Part shown: piece by piece, positions 34,545 through 59,647 of the stretch
Layout of the letters: each line of letters opens with the position of its first letter
Numbering within the stretch: position 1 is the first letter of the stretch
Assembly (NCBI RefSeq): GCF_030705305.1
Contig: NZ_JAUZEE010000001.1
Location: forward strand, 434,001-498,000
DNA length: 64,000 nt
Direction of reading: 5' to 3'
DNA from: Leptothrix discophora
GTDB taxonomy: Bacteria > Pseudomonadota > Gammaproteobacteria > Burkholderiales > Burkholderiaceae_C
Notes under the pieces: generated by a model
The model's database searches: none
What the model saw: the letters and a program-made list of their open reading frames with translations, nothing else
What the model was told of the DNA's origin: nothing
Translations under genes and position numbers: made by a program

Positions 34545-35795
34545 TCAGATCACCGGACTGCGCGGCAGCGCGGCGTCCAGCGCCATCAGCTTCGGACGCA
34601 GCTGCGGCCAGTCCGACTGGGTCGGCGTGAACAGGACGTGCATCGCGATGCCGGGCTGGCTGTGCAGCATCCGCAGGCCCTGGGCCTGCAGGCCACCCAT
34701 CAGCAGCAGTTCGTCGGCTGGACCCTCCAGCCCCAGCTGCTTGCGGTTGCTGGCCGCGGCGGCCAGCAGCAGCGTGCCGCGCCGCGCCAGCTCGGTCGGG
34801 CTGGGGTGGACGCCGGCATGGGCGAGCACGCGGCTGGTCGAGACCTCGAACAGGCAGATGTCGCGCACGCCGGGCAGGGCGCTGACCTCGTGCACGAAGC
34901 GCTCCAGCGGACGGGGGCGCGGGGTGCCGCTGCGGGTGTCGGGCATGGGCTGGCGGACCTCGCGCGCCGGCGCCAGGTTGTCCAGCAGGGACAGGCCCTG
35001 GCCGTCCGGATGCAACTGGGCCTGGATGTGGTTCCAGGTCGCGCTCAGGTAGGCCCAGGCCTCGGCCGGGCGGCTGACCATCGGCGCCAGCCGGGTCTGC
35101 ACGCCGGCCCCGGCGGTCAGGCCACCGGCGACCGACTTCAGCGCGACCGCGGTGGCCGGTGCCAGCGGCATCAGCTGCAGGTGCGGGCATTCCCATGCCG
35201 GGCTGAACAGCAGCTCGCGCAGCGGCTGCAGCTGCTCGGGCACGGCGTGGCTGGGCAGGTCGCCCATCATCACGACCGAGAGCGTGGCCCGGCTCAGCAG
35301 CACGCGGGTCAGCGCCGTGCGGGACTGGGTGTCGGTGTCGGCATCGGTGCTGTAGGTGCGCACCACGCCCTGGTTGCTGGTCGGGCAGTCGACGAACTCA
35401 AGGCTGGCCAGCGTCGTGCCATAGCCCTGGCGGCGGATCACCAGGCGCTGGACCGGCCGCCCGGCCGCCGCGCCGACGGCGTGCAGCAGGTGGCTGGCCG
35501 CGTGGCAGGCGAGGTCGTGCAGGGCGATGTAGGCCGGCTGGAGGTGGTCGAACTGCTGCTGCAGCGCATCGCCGACCTCGCAGGAGACGAACAGCTCACG
35601 CGTCTGGTTGCCGACCGCGCGACCGATGTCGGGCCGCTCGCCGAGGTAGTCGCCCGGGTTCGGGGCGATCATGGTGTGGATCTGGCTGTCGGGGCCGGCG
35701 TCCGGCAGGTGGCCGAAGGTCGACAGGCCGGAGGGGCGGGTGTCCGGGCCGCTGTCAGCGCGTCGGCGTGGTGGCAGTTCGAGCGGACGGTTCAT
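34545..35795 (-). CDS. Unrecognised protein, paralogue A of a three-member local family; possible C-terminal Roadblock/LC7-like domain
   Basis: A 416-residue soluble protein without signal peptide or membrane segment. It aligns with the protein at 40647-42065: RELFV (67-71), a LHD motif (92-94), AAGRPVQRL (110-118), [10 protein letters not shown]…LQPLRELL…[11 protein letters not shown] (172-211), and a C-terminal domain from about 297 ([22 protein letters not shown]) whose beta-beta-alpha pattern resembles Roadblock/LC7. No catalytic motif or nucleotide-binding loop is visible. GGAGG lies eight bases before the ATG at 35795. It is divergent from nadB. Function is unknown. Confidence 0.75.
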
Positions 35796-35853
35796 GCCTG
35801 TGCCTCCAGGCCCGGGTGGACCTTGCGCTGGGTACTGCCGCAGGGCGCAAGGC

Positions 35854-35870
35854 GATCGGAAGGGCCGATC
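35854..35870. other. Inverted repeat in the gap between paralogue A and nadB
   Basis: GATCGG-aaggg-CCGATC is a perfect 6-bp inverted repeat in the 189-bp divergent gap. It is a candidate operator for either gene; no factor can be named. Confidence 0.3.
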
Positions 35871-35903
35871 CGCGCTGCTGCATTTGTTTACATTCGGTCA
35901 TCC

Positions 35904-35909
35904 TATCAT
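35904..35909 (+). promoter_or_regulatory. -10-like element upstream of nadB
   Basis: TATCAT lies in a locally AT-richer stretch 75 bases before the nadB ATG, preceded by TTTGTTTACA at a short spacing. The same CCTATCAT-CCGG context recurs before the MFS gene at 42296. Confidence 0.3.
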
Positions 35910-35984
35910 CCGGCCCCCACCGACAGCGACGAACCCAGGCGGACATTCCGGACCGCTCCAGAGGTGTCGCGCAAAAGCCGCTTC

Positions 35985-37610
35985 ATGAGCTCCACCCCCG
36001 TTTCCAATGGTCTGCCCGTCGTCATCATCGGCGCCGGGCTGGCCGGCCTGACCGTCGCCCTGCACCTGGCCCAGGAGGGCCTGGACGTGGTCGTGCTGGC
36101 CAAGCGCAACCTGGAAGAGTCGGCGACCGCCTGGGCACAGGGCGGCATCGTCGGCGTGCTGGGCGACGACGACAGCGTCGACAGCCACGTGCGCGACACG
36201 CAGGAGGCTGGCGCCGGCCTGGTCGACGAGCACACTGCGCGCTTCATCGCCGAGCGCAGCGCCGAGGCCGTCAGCTGGCTGGTCGACCGCGGCGTGCCGT
36301 TCTCGCCCGATCCGGAAGGCCCGCTGGGCCTGCACCTGACGCGCGAGGGCGGCCATGCGGTGCGCCGCATCGCCCATGCCGCCGACGCGACCGGGCGGGC
36401 GATCCATGAGGCGCTGCTGGCGGAGGTCCGCCAGCACCCGCGCATCTCGCTGCGGGCGCGCTGGATGGCGGTCGACCTGATCACCTCGCGCCACGTGCGC
36501 CGCAACGAGGCCCCGCGCTGCTACGGCGTCTATGCGCTGGACATCGACAGCCGCCGGGTCGAGACGCTGCCGGCCGGCGCGGTCGTGCTGGCCAGCGGCG
36601 GTGCCGGCAAGGTCTACCGCTACACGACCAACCCCGACACCTCCACCGGCGACGGCATCGCGATGGCCTGGCGGGCCGGCTGCAGGGTCGGCAACATGGA
36701 GTTCATTCAGTTCCACCCGACCTGCCTCTACCACCCGCAGGACCGCAGCTTCCTGATCACCGAGGCGCTGCGCGGGGAGGGCGGCCTGCTGCGCCTGCCC
36801 GACGGCACGCGCTTCATGCCGCACCACGACGAGCGCGCCGAGCTGGCGCCGCGCGACGTGGTGGCGCGGGCGATCGACTTCGAGATGAAGCGCCACGGCC
36901 TGGACCATGTGTGGCTCGATGCCACGCACCTGGGCGAGGCTTTCCTGCTCGAGCATTTCCCGACCATCCACGCGCGCTGCCTCGCGCTGGGCATCGACAT
37001 CGCGAAGCAGCCGATCCCGGTCGTGCCGGCGGCGCACTACACCTGTGGCGGCGTGGTCACCGACCTGCACGGCCGCACCGACCTGCCGGGCCTCTACGCG
37101 GTCGGCGAGACGACCTACACCGGCCTGCACGGTGCCAACCGGCTGGCCAGCAATTCGCTGCTGGAATGCGTGGTGCTGGGGCGGACCTGCGCCGAGTCCA
37201 TCCTGGCCCGGCCGGACGAGCCGCGGCCGACGCTGCCGGCCTGGGACGAGAGCAAGGTCGAGGATGCCGACGAGCAGGTCGTCATCTCGCACAACTGGGA
37301 CGAGCTGCGCCTGCTGATGTGGAACTACGTCGGCATCGTGCGGACCACCCGCCGGCTGGAGCGGGCGCTGCACCGCATCGAGTTCCTGCGCAGCGAGATC
37401 GACGACTACTACAAGAACTTCCGCGTCAACCGCGACCTGCTGGAGCTGCGCAACCTGGTCGACTGCGCCGAGCTGATCGTGCGCTCGGCGCTGATGCGCC
37501 ACGAGAGCCGCGGGCTGCATTTCAGCCGCGACTTTCCGGACACGCTGCCGGTGAGCTTCCCGACCATCCTGGTGCGCGAGGCGCGACGCCGCTCGATCGA
37601 CGCCGGTTGA
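35985..37610 (+). CDS. nadB: L-aspartate oxidase
   Basis: NadB oxidises L-aspartate to iminoaspartate with FAD, the first step of de novo NAD synthesis. The 541-residue protein has the FAD motif [18 protein letters not shown], the substrate-binding [17 protein letters not shown], and [25 protein letters not shown] followed by [11 protein letters not shown]. The ATG at 35985 gives the family N-terminus. nadA, which uses its product, lies on the opposite strand 400 bases further on rather than in the same operon. Confidence 0.95.
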
Positions 37611-37625
37611 GCCAGCGCTCCGTCG

Positions 37626-37910
37626 TCAGCGACGGGCGCGCATGGCGATGCGGGCCTGCACGAACTCGAAGGCGAAGCTGACCGCGTCGCTGATGGTCTG
37701 TTCCATCGACAGGCGTTCCTTCTCGGTCAGGTAGAAGGCCAGGTCGACGGTGTGGCGGATGTAGCGCGCGCCGAGCCGGTTGAGCGCCACGCAGGCCACA
37801 TCGGGCAGCTGCTCCTCGCTCAGGTAGGGGTAGTTCGGCGCCATGCGGGCGACGGCGTCGAATACCGGTCGTTCGTAGTGGTTGTGCACGGAGCTGAAGT
37901 CGGGCGTCAT
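37626..37910 (-). CDS. ComFB-family protein (late competence development-like)
   Basis: A 94-residue protein of the ComFB family: HNHYERPVFDAVARM, then LPDVACVALNRLGARYIRHTVDLAFYLT, the conserved core. ComFB-type proteins have been reported as c-di-GMP receptors in other bacteria; whether this one binds is inferred only. It sits between the convergent nadB and the codirectional nadA, 102 bases downstream-strand of nadA's end. Other c-di-GMP proteins occur in the window (53483 and 57926). Confidence 0.85.
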   Translation of the reverse strand: MTPDFSSVHNHYERPVFDAVARMAPNYPYLSEEQLPDVACVALNRLGARYIRHTVDLAFYLTEKERLSMEQTISDAVSFAFEFVQARIAMRARR

Positions 37911-38011
37911 GGCAGGCGGTTCCGCAGAGGTCTGTCTGTCGGCCTTATCGGCGGCGTGGCGCCGGACTTGAACAAACCCGCAAGCCGCGCCGCTCGACCG
38001 TGACGGCCTGC

Positions 38012-39139
38012 TCAGGCCGCGCCCATGCCCGTGGCCATCGGCTGCGCGATCGCTGCCGCTGGCTGGGCCGCGACGAAGTCCAGCATGCGGCGGATGCAGC
38101 CCTCGGCCCGGCTGCGGATCGGCTCGTCAACCAGGATCTCGCCCTGGCCCTGCGCCAGGCAGTCGATCACGCCCTGCAGCGCGTTCATCGCCATCCAGGG
38201 GCAGTGCGCGCAGCTCTTGCACGTTGCGCCGTTGCCGGCGGTCGGGGCCTCGATCAGCACCTTGCCCGGCGCGGCCTGGCGCATGCGGTGGAACATGCCG
38301 TTGTCGGTCGCGACGATGAACTCGCGCGCGTCCAGCTCGATCACCGCCTTGAGCAGCTGGGCGGTCGAGCCGACCACGTCGGCCTGTTCGACCACCTGCT
38401 GGGGCGACTCCGGGTGGACCAGGATCTTCGCCTTCGGGTGCTCGCGCCTCAGAAGCTCCAGCTCCAGGCCCTTGAACTCGTCGTGCACGATGCAGGCGCC
38501 GTTCCACATCAGCATGTCGGCGCCGGTCTCGCGCTGGATGTAGCCACCGAGGTGGCGGTCCGGTGCCCACAGGATCTTGCGGCCCTGGGCATGCAGGTGG
38601 CGCACGATCGGCAGCGCGCAGCTGCTGGTGACCATCCAGTCGGCACGTGCCTTCACCGCCGCGCTGGTGTTGGCGTAGACCACCACGGTGCGGTCCGGAT
38701 GGGCGTCGCAGAAGGCGTTGAAGGCATCCGAAGGACAGCCCAGGTCGAGCGAGCAGGTCGCGTCCAGGTCGGGCATCAGCACCCGCTTGGCCGGTGACAG
38801 GATCTTGGCGCTCTCGCCCATGAAGCGCACGCCGGCGACGACCAGTGTCTGCGCCGAATGGTCGCGGCCGAAGCGGGCCATCTCCAGCGAGTCGGACACG
38901 CAGCCACCCGTCTCGACCGCCAGGTCCTGCAGGTCGCCGTCGACGTAGTAGTGCGCGACCAGCACCGCGCCGCGGGCTCGCAGCAGCTCGGCCGCGCGCG
39001 CCTTCAGTTCGCGACGCTGGACCGGCGTCAGCGGGGCCGGGACCTTGGCCCAGGCATGCGCCGTGCAAGTGGCGCCGCTGGCGTCCTGCTGGTCGTAGTC
39101 GTACTGGGCGGTGGCGGAAGCGGGGGAGGCGGTGGTCAT
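38012..39139 (-). CDS. nadA: Quinolinate synthase
   Basis: NadA condenses iminoaspartate with dihydroxyacetone phosphate to quinolinate using a 4Fe-4S cluster. The 375-residue protein shows the three cluster cysteine regions: [23 protein letters not shown] and [12 protein letters not shown]. Other marks are [16 protein letters not shown] and [12 protein letters not shown]. The ATG at 39139 gives a family-like N-terminus with a 30-residue polar lead. A strong inverted repeat lies 56 bases upstream. Confidence 0.95.
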
Positions 39140-39194
39140 GGCGGGGGCAGACGACGGAAGGCGGCGGCAAGCGGCGGGGCGGGCTCGGGTGGAA

Positions 39195-39219
39195 CGGGTT
39201 CGACAGGCTGGCGAACCCG
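39195..39219. repeat. REP-like inverted repeat between nadA and protein B
   Basis: CGGGTTCG-acaggctgg-CGAACCCG has perfect 8-bp arms and a 9-base loop. The core GGTTCGACAGGCT…CGAAC resembles REP-type palindromes found between genes in other proteobacteria. It could also serve as a terminator for the upstream leftward genes. Only one copy is seen here. Confidence 0.45.
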
Positions 39220-39255
39220 ACCGGGCCGGCATGCTAGCCCAGCAGGCGGGCCGGT

Positions 39256-40602
39256 TCAGGCCAGGGCGTTTCGGGCCACGGTGGCCATCCAGCGCAGTTC
39301 GGCCGCATCGGTGGCGGCCGGGTCAGACAGCGCCAGCAGGGCCAGATCGCGGCCGTCGTCGGGCAGGCGCAGCAGCAGGTGCTGGCGGCTGGCATGGGTC
39401 CAGCTGAGGGCATCGGGCGTTGCCACGGGCTGGGCCGGGTCCTGGCGCCAGCCCCGGGCGACGCGGCCGGTCTCGGCCGCTCCGTCGGCCAGCCAGGCGG
39501 TGTCGCCCTGCTGGGTCAGCACGGCCGCATCGGCCAGACGCAGCACGGCGCAGGCGCGCACGCCGGGCACGCCGATCAGCTGCCTGCAGGCGGCCTCGTG
39601 CAGGCGGTCGGGCGGGCCCAGCGGGGGCAAGGTGGCGGGTGCGGATGTCGGGGCGGAAGTTGGTGAGGATGTCTGGGCGGACGTCTGGGCGGACGTCTGG
39701 GCGGATGTTTGCGCGGAAGGTGCGCAGGCCGCCAGCGACACGACCGCCGCGCTGGCCGGTCCGGCCTGGCTCGTCTCGCGGGCGAGGGCCGGGCCGAGCG
39801 CACGCTGGAGGGCCGGGCGGTGGGGTTTTGAACGGGACACGCGGGACTCCATGTCGGGACCGGTGTGCGCACCGGCCGGGTTCATCGGATTCAGGGGGAT
39901 GGCCACCGGGGCACGGACGGCCGGGCGCGTCGGCTCGGCCACCGCGACCGCGCCGACCGGTTCCAGCAGGACCCGCCGCAGCAGGTCCAGGCTCCAGTGG
40001 CTGCGACCGGCGCGTGGCCAGTCGAAGGCCTGCGCCCGCACGCCACCCGGCCAGGCGTGGCGTCGCAGGCGTGCGGCGCGGGTCGGATGCTCGACCGGTA
40101 CGGCGACCTGCCAGGCCGGCCCTTGCCAGCCGTCTTCGGGCAGCGCGTTCTCGAGCACCTGCTGCCATTCATGGTCGGTGGTGCCGCCGGCCATCACGAC
40201 CAGGCGGTCGGCCTGCCGCATCAGCGACAGCGCCAGCTTCATCGACGGCGTGTGGTGCGGCAGGGTCCGCAGCAGCAGCACGCTGGTGGGCCGGCCGTCG
40301 ACGCGCAGCTCGGCGTGTTCGGCATGCAGCAGCGGTGCAAGCTGGCCTTCACGGCGCAGCGACAGGTCGGTCAGCAGGCCGCTGCCGGCCTCGGCCAGGT
40401 CGACCATCGACAGCGCCGGCCAGCTTCGCGAGGCATCCCAGATCACGACCCAGGCATGTTCGGCGGCCGGCGCGGTGCCGAACACGCGGGCCAGCGGTGG
40501 TGCGTCCGGCGCTTGTTCGGTGGTGCGCAGCTCGCGCCGCAGCAGCCGCACGCGGGCGGGCTGCGAACTTCGGGCGTCGGGATCGTCTGGTGTGGCGGAC
40601 AT
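39256..40602 (-). CDS. Unrecognised protein, member B of a three-member local family
   Basis: A 448-residue protein, 44 bases downstream of protein C and in the same direction, so probably co-transcribed. A central region (about 75-170; [16 protein letters not shown]…[14 protein letters not shown]…[13 protein letters not shown]) aligns loosely with the alpha/beta domain of proteins A and C. Residues 290-330 form a low-complexity linker with repeated AQTS. The last 115 residues ([21 protein letters not shown]…) look like a Roadblock/LC7-type domain. GAGG precedes the ATG at 40602. No catalytic motif is evident and function is unknown. Confidence 0.72.
39671..39717 (-). repeat. 12-bp tandem repeat inside protein B
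   Basis: On the plus strand GTCTGGGCGGAC occurs at 39671, 39683 and (GTCTGGGCGGAT) 39695, followed by a degenerate copy GTTTGCGCGGA to 39717, with further decayed units at lower coordinates. On the coding strand it gives repeated Ala-Gln-Thr-Ser. Units of four codons keep the frame on expansion or loss. Confidence 0.85.
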
Positions 40603-40646
40603 CGCCGGCCTCGGATCGGCGCCGTTCAAGGCGGGACGGTCGAGTT

Positions 40647-42065
40647 TCAGTTCAGGACCTGCTGCGCTTCCATGATCCGGAAGCGCGTCATGGCCAGGTT
40701 GCTGCGCAGCTTGTCGAGCACGGCCAGGATGAAGTAGTCCGGGTGCGCCTGCAGCGTGCGCAGGATGTGGTAGCGACTGCCGGCCGTCACCAGCACCTCG
40801 TCGACCGGGTCGTTGACCCGCGCATGGCCCATCTGGCGCAGCGTGCGGCGGTGCACCCGCAGCACCTCGCTGGCGGCCACGGCGGCACGGTCGATGTCCG
40901 GGCCGCGGCCTTCGCTGGCCACGACCTGGCCGGTGTTGACGTCGACCAGCGCCGCGAAGATCAGGCCATCCAGCAGCATCAGCTCGTGCAGGATGCTGGC
41001 CGCGCGCTGGCCGTCGGGCGCGCGCCGCGAGGCGTCGCCGGCACCGCCCGCATCCGCACCGCCGGTGCTCGGGTAGGCCGAGGCGGCCGACGGATAGGCC
41101 GGCGTCGCCACCAGCACCGTGGTCGTGTTGTTGGTGTGGACGCTCTCGTTGTGCGGCGCCGGGCTCAGGGCCGGTGGATAGGTTGGCGCGAAAGCCGAGG
41201 CCAGCCCGAAGCCGCTCGGCCCAGCATCGGCGCGTGCGCCGGCCGGGCTGGCCGTCGGGCCCGAGGCATGCCGGGCACCGGCCCCGGAACCGTTCCCGTT
41301 GCCGCCGGCGGCCGGCTGACCGCTCTTGAGCTGGTTCCAGTGCGCCAGCAGCTTGTTCCAGACCGCGCTGGCGCTGGTCAGCGGCTCGGCCAGCGTGTGG
41401 ACCTGCATGCCGGCCGGCCAGCCCATCGCCTCGATCTTGTTGGCGATCCAGGCCGCGCCCACCGGCAGCAGGAACAGCAGGTTGGGGCAGTGCCAGGTGT
41501 CGCTGGCGATCGCCGTGCGCAGCTGCGACAGCATCTCGTCGATCGCCGACGGCGGCAGCGGGCCGACGATGACGGCGGTCAGGTCCGAACGTTCCATCAG
41601 CGCGAAAGGCACCGCCGTCACGTCGGCGCCCTGGCCGCGCACGTCGGCGTGGTAGACCTTGAGCGTGTCGCCGGCGCGGCGCGGCAGGGTCGTGCGCTCG
41701 ATCATGGCCAGCGTGCTGAGCGTGGTCTGGTCGCGCAGGTGCAGGCGTTCGACCGGCTGGCCGCTGGCATCGGCCAGCGCCTTGATGACGGCCGCCGCCC
41801 ACATCTGGGCCGGGTCGTGCAGGCTGATGATGCGCTGGTCGCTGCCGTGTTCTTCCCGGGTGCCGGCGAAGTGCGCCCGCATCGCCTGGGCGGGCGAGCC
41901 GGTCACGAACAGGTCACGCAGGTTGCGGTCGACGATCTGGCCGCGGTCATCGACCTCGCCGGCGACCGATTCGAGTATCGCGGTGGCGACGAAGTCGGGT
42001 TGCGGTTCGCGTCGCTCGGCCGGTTCACGCAGCGGGGCCAAATCTCCAAACAGGCTTTTCAGCAT
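40647..42065 (-). CDS. Unrecognised protein, paralogue C of a three-member local family, with C-terminal Roadblock/LC7-like domain
   Basis: A 472-residue soluble protein. Residues 1-247 share the fold and motifs of protein A: RDLFV (50-54), LHD (82-84), SGQPVERL (101-108), SDLTAVIVGPLPPSAIDEML…LRTAIASDTWHCPNLLFLLPV (160-202). A glycine-, alanine- and proline-rich linker covers about 250-350. Residues 355-472 (ILHELMLLDGLIFAALVDVNTGQVVASEG…ILRTLQAHPDYFILAVLDKLRSNLAMTRFRI) read as a Roadblock/LC7-type domain. AGGA lies five bases before the ATG at 42065. It heads a two-gene leftward transcript with protein B. Function is unknown. Confidence 0.75.
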   Translation of the reverse strand: MLKSLFGDLAPLREPAERREPQPDFVATAILESVAGEVDDRGQIVDRNLRDLFVTGSPAQAMRAHFAGTREEHGSDQRIISLHDPAQMWAAAVIKALADASGQPVERLHLRDQTTLSTLAMIERTTLPRRAGDTLKVYHADVRGQGADVTAVPFALMERSDLTAVIVGPLPPSAIDEMLSQLRTAIASDTWHCPNLLFLLPVGAAWIANKIEAMGWPAGMQVHTLAEPLTSASAVWNKLLAHWNQLKSGQPAAGGNGNGSGAGARHASGPTASPAGARADAGPSGFGLASAFAPTYPPALSPAPHNESVHTNNTTTVLVATPAYPSAASAYPSTGGADAGGAGDASRRAPDGQRAASILHELMLLDGLIFAALVDVNTGQVVASEGRGPDIDRAAVAASEVLRVHRRTLRQMGHARVNDPVDEVLVTAGSRYHILRTLQAHPDYFILAVLDKLRSNLAMTRFRIMEAQQVLN

Positions 42066-56999: not shown

Positions 57000-57929
57000 A
57001 TGCTCGACGTCCGCCAGCTGCAAGCCTTCGTCGCCGTGATCGAGCAGGGCGGTTTCGGCCCTGCGGCGCTGGCGCTGGACCTGACGCTGGCGGCGGTCTC
57101 GCTGCGCATCAAGTCGCTGGAGGCCAGCCTGGGACAGCGCCTGGTGGTGCGGGGCAAGACCGTGCGCGCGACGGCCGCCGGCCAGGCGCTGCTGGCGCAC
57201 GTCAAGCAGGTCCGGCTGATGGAGGCCGACCTGCTGGCCGGCCTGCCCGGAGGCCAGGCACGTGGCGCGGCCACATGGCAGAGCCTGGGCGTGGCGATCA
57301 ATGCCGATTCGGTCGCCAGCTGGTTCCTGCCCGGCGTCGCGCCGCTGCTGCAGCGCGATCGGCTGCTGATGGAGATCGTCATCGACGACCAGGACCACAC
57401 CCACGACGCGCTCAAGAGCGGCGACGTGGTCGGCTGCGTGACCACGCTCGCGCGTGCCATCCGTGGCTGCGTGGCCGAGCCGCTGGGCGCCTTGCGCTAC
57501 CGCTGCGTGGCGGCACCCGAGGTCGTCGCGCGCTGCCACACGGCCGGCGGCCGCTTGTCACCGCACCGCCTGCTGGCCGAGCCGGCGGTGATCTTCAACC
57601 GCAAGGACGCGCTGCAGGACGCCTTCCTGGTCCAGCACCTGGGCCTGCGGCAGCCGCACTACCCACGCCACCACGCGCCGGCGGTCGACGCCTTCGAGCG
57701 CGCCATCGAGCTGGGCCTGGGCTGGGGCATGGTGCCGGAACAGCACCTGGTCGACCGTCCCGGCCTGGCCGAGATCCTGCCCGGCGCGACCGTCGACGTG
57801 CGCCTCTACTGGCAGCACTGGGCCCGCGAGTCCGAGCCGGCGCGGCGGCTGACCGCGGCGGTCAAGGCAGCGGCGCATGCCGCACTGACACAGGAAGGGC
57901 AGGCCGTGGCGCTGAACGCGGCGACCTAG
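57000..57929 (+). CDS. ArgP/LysG-like LysR-family regulator
   Basis: A 309-residue LysR regulator of the IciA/ArgP/LysG group. The N-terminus LDVRQLQAFVAVIEQGGFGPAALALDLTLAAVSLRIKSLEASLGQRLVVRG holds the winged helix and is typical of that group, whose members sense lysine or arginine and usually control a lysine or arginine exporter. Here it is divergent from davBA, so lysine-dependent control of the catabolic operon is likely (inferred). Its TAG stop shares the CTAG with the stop of the convergent cyclase gene. Confidence 0.87.
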   Translation: MLDVRQLQAFVAVIEQGGFGPAALALDLTLAAVSLRIKSLEASLGQRLVVRGKTVRATAAGQALLAHVKQVRLMEADLLAGLPGGQARGAATWQSLGVAINADSVASWFLPGVAPLLQRDRLLMEIVIDDQDHTHDALKSGDVVGCVTTLARAIRGCVAEPLGALRYRCVAAPEVVARCHTAGGRLSPHRLLAEPAVIFNRKDALQDAFLVQHLGLRQPHYPRHHAPAVDAFERAIELGLGWGMVPEQHLVDRPGLAEILPGATVDVRLYWQHWARESEPARRLTAAVKAAAHAALTQEGQAVALNAAT

Positions 57930-59647
57930 TGGCCGGCCAGCACCACCGAGTCGTTCTCGCATGCGGCCATGCGGATCTGGTTTCGGCCGCTGCGCTTGGC
58001 GCGGTACATGGCGTCGTCGGCCAGCTTGACGAGTTCGTCGCTGCTCAGCTCGCAGCCGGGCCGCAGGCAGGCCAGGCCGATGCTGGCGCTGACGCGCAAC
58101 GTCGCCCCGTCGGCCTGGACCGGCTCGCCGGCCGCCAGCAGCAGCAGCTCGGCGACTTGCTGGGCATCGTCCGGCGTGTTCTTCAGGCCTTCGAGCAGGA
58201 CGACGAACTCGTCGCCGCCAAGCCGGGCCAGCGTGTCGGTCTGGCGCAGCAGGCCGCGCATGCGCTGCGACAGACCGATCAGCAGCTGGTCTCCGGCGTG
58301 GTGGCCGTGCTGGTCGTTGACGGCCTTGAAGCCGTCCAGGTCGATGAACAGCAGCGCGACGGCGGTGCCCTGGCGACGCACCCGGCTGAGCGCGCCCTCC
58401 AGCATCAGGAAGAAGGCGCGCCGGTTCGGCAGGCCCGTCAGCGCATCGTGGCTGGCCTCGTGCTCGCGCACGGCCTGGGCTTCCTTGAGGGCGCTGATGT
58501 CGGTCAGGAAGCCGACGAACAGCTGGCGCGAGGCGTCGTCGTCGGGGTTCTCGACCCGGCCGACCGCCAGCCGCACCGGCAGCACCGTGCCGTCGCTGCG
58601 TTGGGCCGTGACCTCGCGGCCGATGCCGATCACGCGCGGTTCGCCGCCCTGGCGATAGCGGTGCAGGTAGCCGTCATGGCCACTGCGGTAGGGCTCGGGC
58701 ATCAGCACCGAGACGTTGCGGCCGATCAGCTGATCGGCTTCGTAGCGCAGCATCTTCAGGGCCGAACGGTTGATGGTGCGGATCAGGCCGCGCGCGTCGA
58801 TGGTCACGATGCCGTCGACGGCCGTGTCGAACATGGCCTGCAGCCGTGCCTCGCTGGACTGCAGCTGCGCGACCACCAGGCGGTACTTCAGGATCGTGTT
58901 GCCGCCCAGCGCGACCACGCCCATGATGACGGCGGCCAGCGCCACGAAGCCGGCCAGCGCGACCACGCCTTCGCTGGCGGTCGGCATGTCGGTCTCGGCG
59001 ACGCCGATGAAGCGCACCGAGGCCATGCCGAGGTAGTGCATCGAGGTGATCGCCGCGCCCATCAATGTGCCGGCAATGGCCGTCGTCAGCAGTCCGCTGA
59101 AGCGTCCGCTGGCCAGCAGGGCTTCGCGGATCCACAACGAGAAGGTCGCCAGCACCACCGCCGCGACGATGGATAGCCCGAAGGTGAGCGGCTCGAAGCG
59201 CAGCAACGGCGTCATGCGCAGCGACAGCATGCCGCCGTGGTGCATCAGGCCGATGCCGGCACCGACCAGGATGCCGCCGCCCACGAGCTGGGCCGGCCGG
59301 ATCTGTTCACGCGACAGCAGGCTCAGCGCCAGCCCGGCCGCCAGCAACGCGGGCAGCACCGAGGCGGCGGTCCAATGCAGGTCGTAGGACGTGTGGAAGC
59401 AGACCTCCATGGCCATCATGCCGACGAAGTGCATGGCCCAGACGCCGCCGCCCAGCGCGACCGCTCCGCTGCCAATCGACAGCATGCGGTGGCTCAGTTT
59501 CAGCGAGGACCGTGCCAGCGTCGCCACCTGCAGGGCGATGATCGACGCGATGACGGCAATGGCGACGGACAGCGCGACCAGGCCCGGGTCGTGGCCGAAG
59601 GGAAGGACCTGGGTCGCGGCGGGATCGGCAAAGAATCTGTATGGCAT
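57926..59647 (-). CDS. MHYT-PAS-GGDEF diguanylate cyclase
   Basis: A 573-residue membrane diguanylate cyclase. The N-terminal MHYT sensor has seven transmembrane segments with three motifs (AMHFVGMM, LMHHGGM, SMHYLGM), thought to bind a metal and sense O2, CO or NO. A PAS domain follows (about 270-390, ARLQAMFDTAVDGIVTIDARG), then the GGDEF domain (about 400-565) with an intact GGDEF and an I-site RQTD five residues before it. It is likely active. There is no EAL domain. Confidence 0.92.
   Translation of the reverse strand: MPYRFFADPAATQVLPFGHDPGLVALSVAIAVIASIIALQVATLARSSLKLSHRMLSIGSGAVALGGGVWAMHFVGMMAMEVCFHTSYDLHWTAASVLPALLAAGLALSLLSREQIRPAQLVGGGILVGAGIGLMHHGGMLSLRMTPLLRFEPLTFGLSIVAAVVLATFSLWIREALLASGRFSGLLTTAIAGTLMGAAITSMHYLGMASVRFIGVAETDMPTASEGVVALAGFVALAAVIMGVVALGGNTILKYRLVVAQLQSSEARLQAMFDTAVDGIVTIDARGLIRTINRSALKMLRYEADQLIGRNVSVLMPEPYRSGHDGYLHRYRQGGEPRVIGIGREVTAQRSDGTVLPVRLAVGRVENPDDDASRQLFVGFLTDISALKEAQAVREHEASHDALTGLPNRRAFFLMLEGALSRVRRQGTAVALLFIDLDGFKAVNDQHGHHAGDQLLIGLSQRMRGLLRQTDTLARLGGDEFVVLLEGLKNTPDDAQQVAELLLLAAGEPVQADGATLRVSASIGLACLRPGCELSSDELVKLADDAMYRAKRSGRNQIRMAACENDSVVLAGH

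Follow-up and report, generated by a model that had tools for sequence, protein, structure and literature searches.

A bacterial protein family joining a predicted small-GTPase-like domain without GTP-binding motifs to a C-terminal Roadblock domain

The stretch of DNA analysed here (the window) covers 64,000 nucleotides of Leptothrix discophora contig NZ_JAUZEE010000001.1 (positions 434,001 to 498,000, forward strand). It contains three open reading frames (ORFs), here called genes A, B and C, whose products form one protein family in which an N-terminal domain of predicted small-GTPase-like fold, devoid of GTP-binding motifs, precedes a C-terminal Roadblock/LC7 domain. An earlier reading made from the letters of the DNA only (the sequence-only reading) had described three ORFs interleaved with nadB, a comFB-like gene and nadA. 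All three ORFs exist at the positions below, on the minus strand, and the interleaving is right according to the NCBIfam models of nadB and nadA and the Pfam model of ComFB. The features are listed in window coordinates, with lengths in amino acids (aa).

34545..35795, minus strand: gene A, 416 aa, an ORF with a GTPase-like N-domain, a linker and a Roadblock-like C-domain, aligned with C by hhalign.
35010..35642, minus strand: N-domain of A (residues 52-262), small-GTPase-like by AlphaFold2 and Foldseek, without a P-loop.
34548..34910, minus strand: probable Roadblock domain of A (residues about 296-416), by profile alignment to the C-domain of C.
35985..37610, plus strand: nadB, divergent from A (NCBIfam NF006567, E=1.2e-261).
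37626..37910, minus strand: ComFB-family protein, 94 aa (Pfam PF10719, E=1.7e-18).
38012..39139 (start approximate, set from relatives), minus strand: nadA, downstream of C and B (NCBIfam TIGR00550, E=1e-103).
39256..40602, minus strand: gene B, 448 aa, an ORF and third paralogue, aligned with C and A by hhalign.
39268..39606, minus strand: Roadblock-like domain of B (residues about 333-445), by profile alignment to C.
40647..42065, minus strand: gene C, 472 aa, an ORF whose start is backed by an N-terminal peptide kept in relatives.
41316..41933, minus strand: N-domain of C (residues 45-250), predicted small-GTPase-like by AlphaFold2, the predicted local distance difference test (pLDDT) exceeding 90 in most 10-residue blocks.
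41037..41312, minus strand: disordered linker of C (residues 252-343, about 90 residues), pLDDT below 50.
40653..41012, minus strand: Roadblock domain of C (residues 352-471), by the Foldseek matches 3kye and MglB 1j3w and, by profile, MglC 7ct3.

As single sequences, A, B and C match nothing in Pfam and nothing in NCBIfam below E=0.25, and a search of each against the Protein Data Bank (PDB) gave nothing useful. The sequence-only reading had recognised no described system, and the libraries searched (Pfam and NCBIfam) indeed hold none that covers the three proteins. Pairwise BLASTP relates A to C (E=2e-26, 32% identity over 214 alignment positions) and, weakly, B to C (E=1e-4), while B and A go undetected (best E 3.9). 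Family profiles built from the relatives of each protein align over both domains in every pairing by hhalign: C with A at Prob 100, E=4.5e-41 and 381 columns, B with C at Prob 99.2, E=3.4e-19 and 336 columns, and B with A at Prob 98.7, E=3e-16 and 323 columns. A, B and C are one family with common ancestry over both domains. The relatedness claimed earlier for A and C is thus well above chance, and the succession of an alpha/beta domain and a Roadblock domain in all three proteins is supported by the profiles and Foldseek. All-against-all alignment, which the same reading had proposed, links every pair of the three proteins at the level of profiles. That reading had B sharing the central region loosely: the relation is real, but B aligns with A and C over both domains and this view was therefore too cautious.

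In a tree of 52 Roadblock domains, A, B and a set of stand-alone Roadblock proteins each form one supported group. C is paraphyletic around the stand-alone proteins, with weak support, and three MglB-type proteins lie apart from all the others. Among the named relatives of C, that of Sphaerotilus mobilis is closest (88%). B is present in 8 of 75 named related loci, six of them from Sphaerotilus, one from Leptothrix and one from an unclassified metagenome-assembled genome.

The C-terminal domain of the family is, judging from the structural model of C, a Roadblock/LC7 domain. The AlphaFold2 model of C, computed from 94 rows of C and A relatives, has a mean pLDDT of 79.1 (at least 90 in 288 of 472 residues) and consists of two well-predicted domains (about 45-250 and 352-471) joined by the disordered linker. 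Its first Foldseek match in the PDB is a Streptomyces Roadblock domain (3kye, E=1.5e-7), followed by MglB (1j3w, E=2.2e-7) and Ragulator structures. Against PDB sequences, the C profile has a single match, Myxococcus MglC (7ct3, E=0.0012), and the A profile has none. The Pfam model Robl_LC7 (PF03259) at E<=1 recognises 11 of the 94 A and C relatives scanned singly (best E=6e-4), none of the three window proteins and none of nine B members. The fold is seen in the model for C, and A and B are assigned to it only by profile alignment to C, which makes them probable Roadblock proteins. This agrees with the earlier suggestion of a Roadblock/LC7-like C-terminal domain that is clearest in C.

The N-terminal domain has a predicted small-GTPase-like fold. 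Modelled alone by AlphaFold2, residues 52-262 of A reach a pLDDT of 93.6 and a predicted template modeling score (pTM) of 0.90. The first Foldseek match of this model in the PDB is Arf6 (E=6.5e-4), and 49 of the 50 matches listed are GTPases or G-protein complexes by their titles, the exception being 3e35. After Arf6, they are mostly Rab, Arf, Arl, Ras and G-alpha complexes (in receptor complexes the matching chain is presumed to be G-alpha), and MglA bound to MglB stands at rank 11. The order of strands and helices in the models of A and C is that of small GTPases, with an N-terminal strand-helix and one extra strand added. When the full-length model of C is searched, the Rag chains 7t3a_K, 6s6a_B and 6wj2_G appear at ranks 10, 32 and 45 with both domains in the Rag order. 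At the level of fold, the family therefore has the Rag layout, in which a single chain carries a GTPase-fold domain and, C-terminal to it, a Roadblock domain. The comparison with Roadblock/LC7 and small-GTPase folds proposed in the sequence-only reading thus returns Roadblock for C and GTPases for the N-domain of A.

Several results weigh against reading this domain as a relic of a GTPase. The Foldseek matches of the A N-domain are modest, with only two at E<=0.001 and template modeling scores (TM-scores) of 0.24-0.63 in the listed rows, so that the resemblance is one of fold only. The Rag chains align with C over 426-435 columns, a count that includes gaps, and the root-mean-square deviation of 16-19 A (TMq 0.22-0.23) means that the two domains of C do not superpose on Rag as a single rigid body. 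The N-domain profile matches no PDB sequence at E<=10, and its hhalign comparison with four MglA-like GTPases yields Prob 0.56% and E=0.1, the best local alignment lying in the expected register. Neither of these methods detects a relationship in sequence to Rag or any other small GTPase.

An alternative is that the N-domain is an alpha/beta domain of another origin that merely resembles small GTPases, A, B and C being Roadblock scaffolds unrelated to Rag or MglA. Sequence methods that detect no GTPase relation and the modest scores of the A N-domain favour this explanation. Nevertheless it appears unlikely, as the listed fold matches are, by title, GTPases or G-protein complexes with a single exception and include bacterial MglA, the element order fits small GTPases, and the N-domain is fused to a Roadblock domain, the usual partner domain of GTPases. 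The sequence-only reading had seen no GTPase near the three genes, and none was found by NCBIfam or Pfam among the neighbours scanned, which are part of the window genes only. This view does not hold for the proteins themselves, whose N-domain is small-GTPase-like with the nucleotide-binding motifs gone (AlphaFold2, Foldseek and alignment). The missing GTPase partner thus seems to be fused into A, B and C and degenerate.

At the position of the P-loop, the C relatives carry D84-P85-x-x-x-W89-A90, identical in 66 of 66 rows. The A relatives have H93 (28/28) and D94 (27/28) with S or A in the place of the lysine and no lysine. No P-loop lies within the N-domain fold in any of 94 sequences. The G1 pattern GxxxxGK[ST] occurs in one of the 94 full-length sequences, in the disordered N-terminal tail that precedes the domain, and the G4-type pattern [NT]KxD likewise in one. 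As a control, GxxxxGK[ST] was recovered in three of four MglA-like GTPases, the fourth being truncated at its start. Neither the functional G1 and G4 (NKxD) motifs of Rag/Gtr nor the intact P-loop of MglA-type GTPases is found in the family. The GTP-binding motifs are lost from the N-domain, and GTP binding in solution is probably lost with them. Because a GTPase-shaped part remains without the usual GTP-binding motifs, A, B and C are more likely paired scaffolds than GTP switches.

Alternatively, the site of the former P-loop in the N-domain might still form a pocket, now repurposed to bind a nucleotide or a cyclic dinucleotide, in which case the pair would act as a ligand sensor. In C, few stretches are as conserved as this one (D84, P85, W89 and A90 as above), and R111, in C numbering, is found in 94 of 94 sequences. 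The frequent neighbour ComFB belongs to a family reported, in cyanobacteria, to bind c-di-AMP and c-di-GMP and to be needed for piliation and DNA uptake (PMC12313861). However, conservation at the P-loop position may be structural, A carries different residues there, and ComFB is absent from 10 of 34 genomes with A and from 10 of 26 with C, all of which makes a ligand sensor distinctly improbable. ComFB was matched in 69 of 200 genomes, among them 24 of 34 with A (odds ratio 6.5) and 16 of 26 with C (odds ratio 3.7). It is associated with A and C and not required, and an obligate link was rejected in view of the genomes that miss it. For the ties to surface motility, competence or c-di-GMP considered in the sequence-only reading, these counts thus give an association and no more. 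By analogy with the cyanobacterial proteins, ComFB may connect the family with pili or second messengers.

The genome does contain a canonical MglA-like GTPase elsewhere. Contig C26 encodes it (L167:9981-10514, minus strand) with an intact P-loop, GPVGAGKT, and an ATP_bind_1 match (E=3.2e-14). About 0.8 kb away lies an MglB-type Roadblock protein (L167:8832-9191, minus strand; Robl_LC7 E=6.6e-17), with a 212-aa protein between the two. A stand-alone C-type Roadblock protein without Pfam match is encoded on contig C29 (L168:8544-8909, minus strand), and such proteins of 120-150 aa are found in many relatives. In L073, L074 and L076, around 6-9 kb, an MglA-like GTPase, an MglB-type Roadblock and a C-type Roadblock adjoin, together with a protein of unknown function.

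These genes raise the alternative that A, B and C serve the MglA-like GTPase of the genome as accessory regulators of the Roadblock type, either GTPase-activating proteins or scaffolds. The GTPase was surveyed in 14 other genomes with A and C and 14 without, hand-picked from high-quality ones. It was matched in four of the 14 without A and C, and each of the five GTPase matches in those four genomes has a stand-alone C-type Roadblock 0.5-0.65 kb away, an arrangement that, like the genes on contigs C26 and C29, would suit such a role. Among the genomes with A and C, by contrast, only two of 14 gave a match, both Sphaerotilus, and 12 gave none. A regulatory role towards this GTPase is accordingly very improbable, and a general dependence of A and C on an MglA-like GTPase was rejected.

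The distribution of A and C was followed by profile searches across the GTDB-like family to which this bacterium belongs (399 genomes), with cuts of at least 363 bits for C (A1 profile) and at least 325 bits for A (A2 profile). The first 4-8 candidates per genome were scored, so that absences are not firm. Among the matches listed, C is found in 57 genomes, A in 75 and both in 52. The counts exclude G102 (183.6 bits, 65% complete), matches beyond those listed, and the weaker N-domain matches of G139, G975, G1045 and G1105, which are single matches or contain internal stops. Co-occurrence of A and C is strong (Fisher odds ratio 144, p=5e-41, kinship ignored). Two points argue against reading it as pairing: the test ignores phylogeny, and among the matches listed A occurs without C in 23 genomes and C without A in five. 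Two of these five (G045 and G1090) are incomplete or fragmented and the other three (G011, G1048 and G1108) belong to one genus.

A and C share a contig in 35 pairs, and in 32 of them the two genes have the same orientation, with A 421-13,479 bp downstream. In the other three pairs (G091, G1082 and G954) the genes are on opposite strands and separated by 332-393 kb, and in 17 further pairs A and C are on different contigs. Searches beyond the family with the N-domain profile, again scoring the first 4-8 candidates per genome, yielded nothing credible in an order sample of 399 genomes and a class sample of 369 genomes. Two weak matches were rejected as chance, one in G276, where the listed ORFs of at least 150 aa are unlike the family, and one in G897, where two stops interrupt the stretch.

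The gene order in many relatives is clpB-A-nadB-ComFB-nadC-nadA-C-MFS, whereas L147, L150, L153 and L155 (three Aquabacterium) have C-ComFB-A-nadA. Where the block is split, A remains at clpB and C at the MFS gene. In the related loci, nadA neighbours of at least 72% identity were found by BLASTP. An ORF read as nadC lies between nadA and ComFB in relatives such as L046; in the window the corresponding gap of about 100 bp (37911-38011) holds no nadC.

This neighbourhood would suit proteins that regulate or scaffold NAD synthesis through NadA and NadB. C and B are separated by 44 bp and B and nadA by 116 bp on one strand, which makes an operon likely, A and nadB diverge from a 189 bp interval, and the nad-gene neighbourhood is conserved in many relatives. 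On the other hand, no nadA match was obtained in G954 and G192, two genomes with A and C, by a search without its own positive control, and several genomes have A beside clpB and C beside an MFS gene but no nad genes in the vicinity. Such a role is hardly tenable, and NAD synthesis was rejected as the main function. The two genomes without a nadA match hint that some relatives may have lost de novo NAD synthesis.

The nearest known architecture is that of the Rag/Gtr proteins in TORC1 signalling (RagA-D and Gtr1/Gtr2). As described in PMC10329633, a Rag GTPase carries a Roadblock domain C-terminal to its GTPase domain, and heterodimers form through the Roadblock domains. The likeness lies in this domain order, in the existence of a paralogous pair, and in the alignment of Rag chains along most of the length of C. 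In contrast, A, B and C are bacterial and without P-loop, C has the long disordered linker, no Ragulator or TOR is known for them, and a sequence relation is undetectable. Since the GTP-binding motifs are absent and sequence homology is not detected, the family is an architectural variant of the Rag kind and not a Rag GTPase by membership.

Prokaryotic GTPase-Roadblock proteins are described in Asgard archaea (PMC4917890), including Rag-like proteins encoded as an operonic pair and predicted to form a heterodimer through their Roadblock domains (PMC10933270). They share with A and C the two-domain layout in a prokaryote. The Asgard proteins are treated as GTPases in that source, whereas the nucleotide motifs of A, B and C are gone, and the A and C relatives are found in one bacterial family only among the genomes sampled.

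Compared with the MglA-MglB-MglC polarity module of Myxococcus xanthus, the Roadblock domain is nearest to MglC in sequence and to MglB in fold, and the A N-domain matches MglA in fold. In that module, however, an active GTPase stands beside Roadblocks that are proteins of their own, while each of A, B and C unites the two parts and has a degenerate G domain; the family thus differs from MglB and MglC, stand-alone Roadblocks that act with a GTPase in trans. Within Roadblock/LC7 (PF03259), the family shares the C-terminal fold and 11 of 94 members reach the model at E<=1, but the window proteins miss it and group with stand-alone relatives away from the three MglB-type proteins. Response_reg-Roadblock fusions are also mentioned in the literature (PMC4316618). 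In the literature surveyed, GTPase-Roadblock fusions are described from eukaryotes (Rag/Gtr) and Asgard archaea, and no bacterial GTPase-Roadblock or pseudo-GTPase-Roadblock fusion was recognised by title or abstract in open-licence literature.

In the proposed model, which we give an even chance, A and C would pair through their Roadblock domains, A would pair with itself where C is absent, and B would be a third partner, a third copy in Sphaerotilus and Leptothrix. The pair would present two fixed, degenerate GTPase-like domains on flexible linkers as GTP-independent docking surfaces, and the A:C complex would act as a scaffold or adaptor rather than as a GTP switch, in line with the scaffold or regulatory complex suggested in the sequence-only reading. 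Its computed basis is the common ancestry, the Roadblock fold, the GTPase-like predicted fold, the absence of the P-loop and the co-retention of A and C. This co-retention is consistent with an obligate Roadblock heterodimer, no more, and both A-C pairing and scaffold action are suggested by analogy with known systems.

A more specific form of the scaffold model, put forward tentatively, sees the family as a bacterial counterpart of the Rag heterodimer working without GTP, with two pseudo-GTPase-Roadblock subunits (three in Sphaerotilus) joined by their Roadblocks. Switching, if any, would then come from a repurposed pocket or from a partner such as ComFB. If true, MglA-type and Roadblock modules would have fused independently in one bacterial family, and the GTPase cycle would have been lost. 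Bacterial proteins of Rag layout, co-kept in two or three copies and devoid of GTP motifs, would imply that this layout can serve beyond the GTP switch. Two genes in non-pathogenic freshwater bacteria would offer a simple genetic system for the role of a Roadblock-tethered G-like domain, and the work would name protein families covered by neither Pfam nor NCBIfam.

Some features of the locus touch the ends and linkers of the proteins. C relatives begin with the conserved peptide ML[KTS][ST]LFG[DE]L (window 42039-42065, minus strand), which supports the start of C, followed by a variable stretch and FAATAILES (41960-41990, minus strand). A relatives have a comparable ATQ-containing stretch ahead of the N-domain. 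These peptides are possible binding or phosphorylation motifs. The true start of B may lie upstream of the given ATG, and its linker (39650-39710, minus strand) carries repeated SAQT/TSAQ units that are not present in the other aligned B relatives. A promoter scan of the locus returned no promoter-like site; five terminator-like sites were counted where 2.2 are expected, and these were not used as evidence. The GGDEF protein that the sequence-only reading had placed nearby is present as a PAS-GGDEF diguanylate cyclase-like protein (57929-59647, minus strand; GGDEF domain E=4e-43), but it lies about 16 kb from C.

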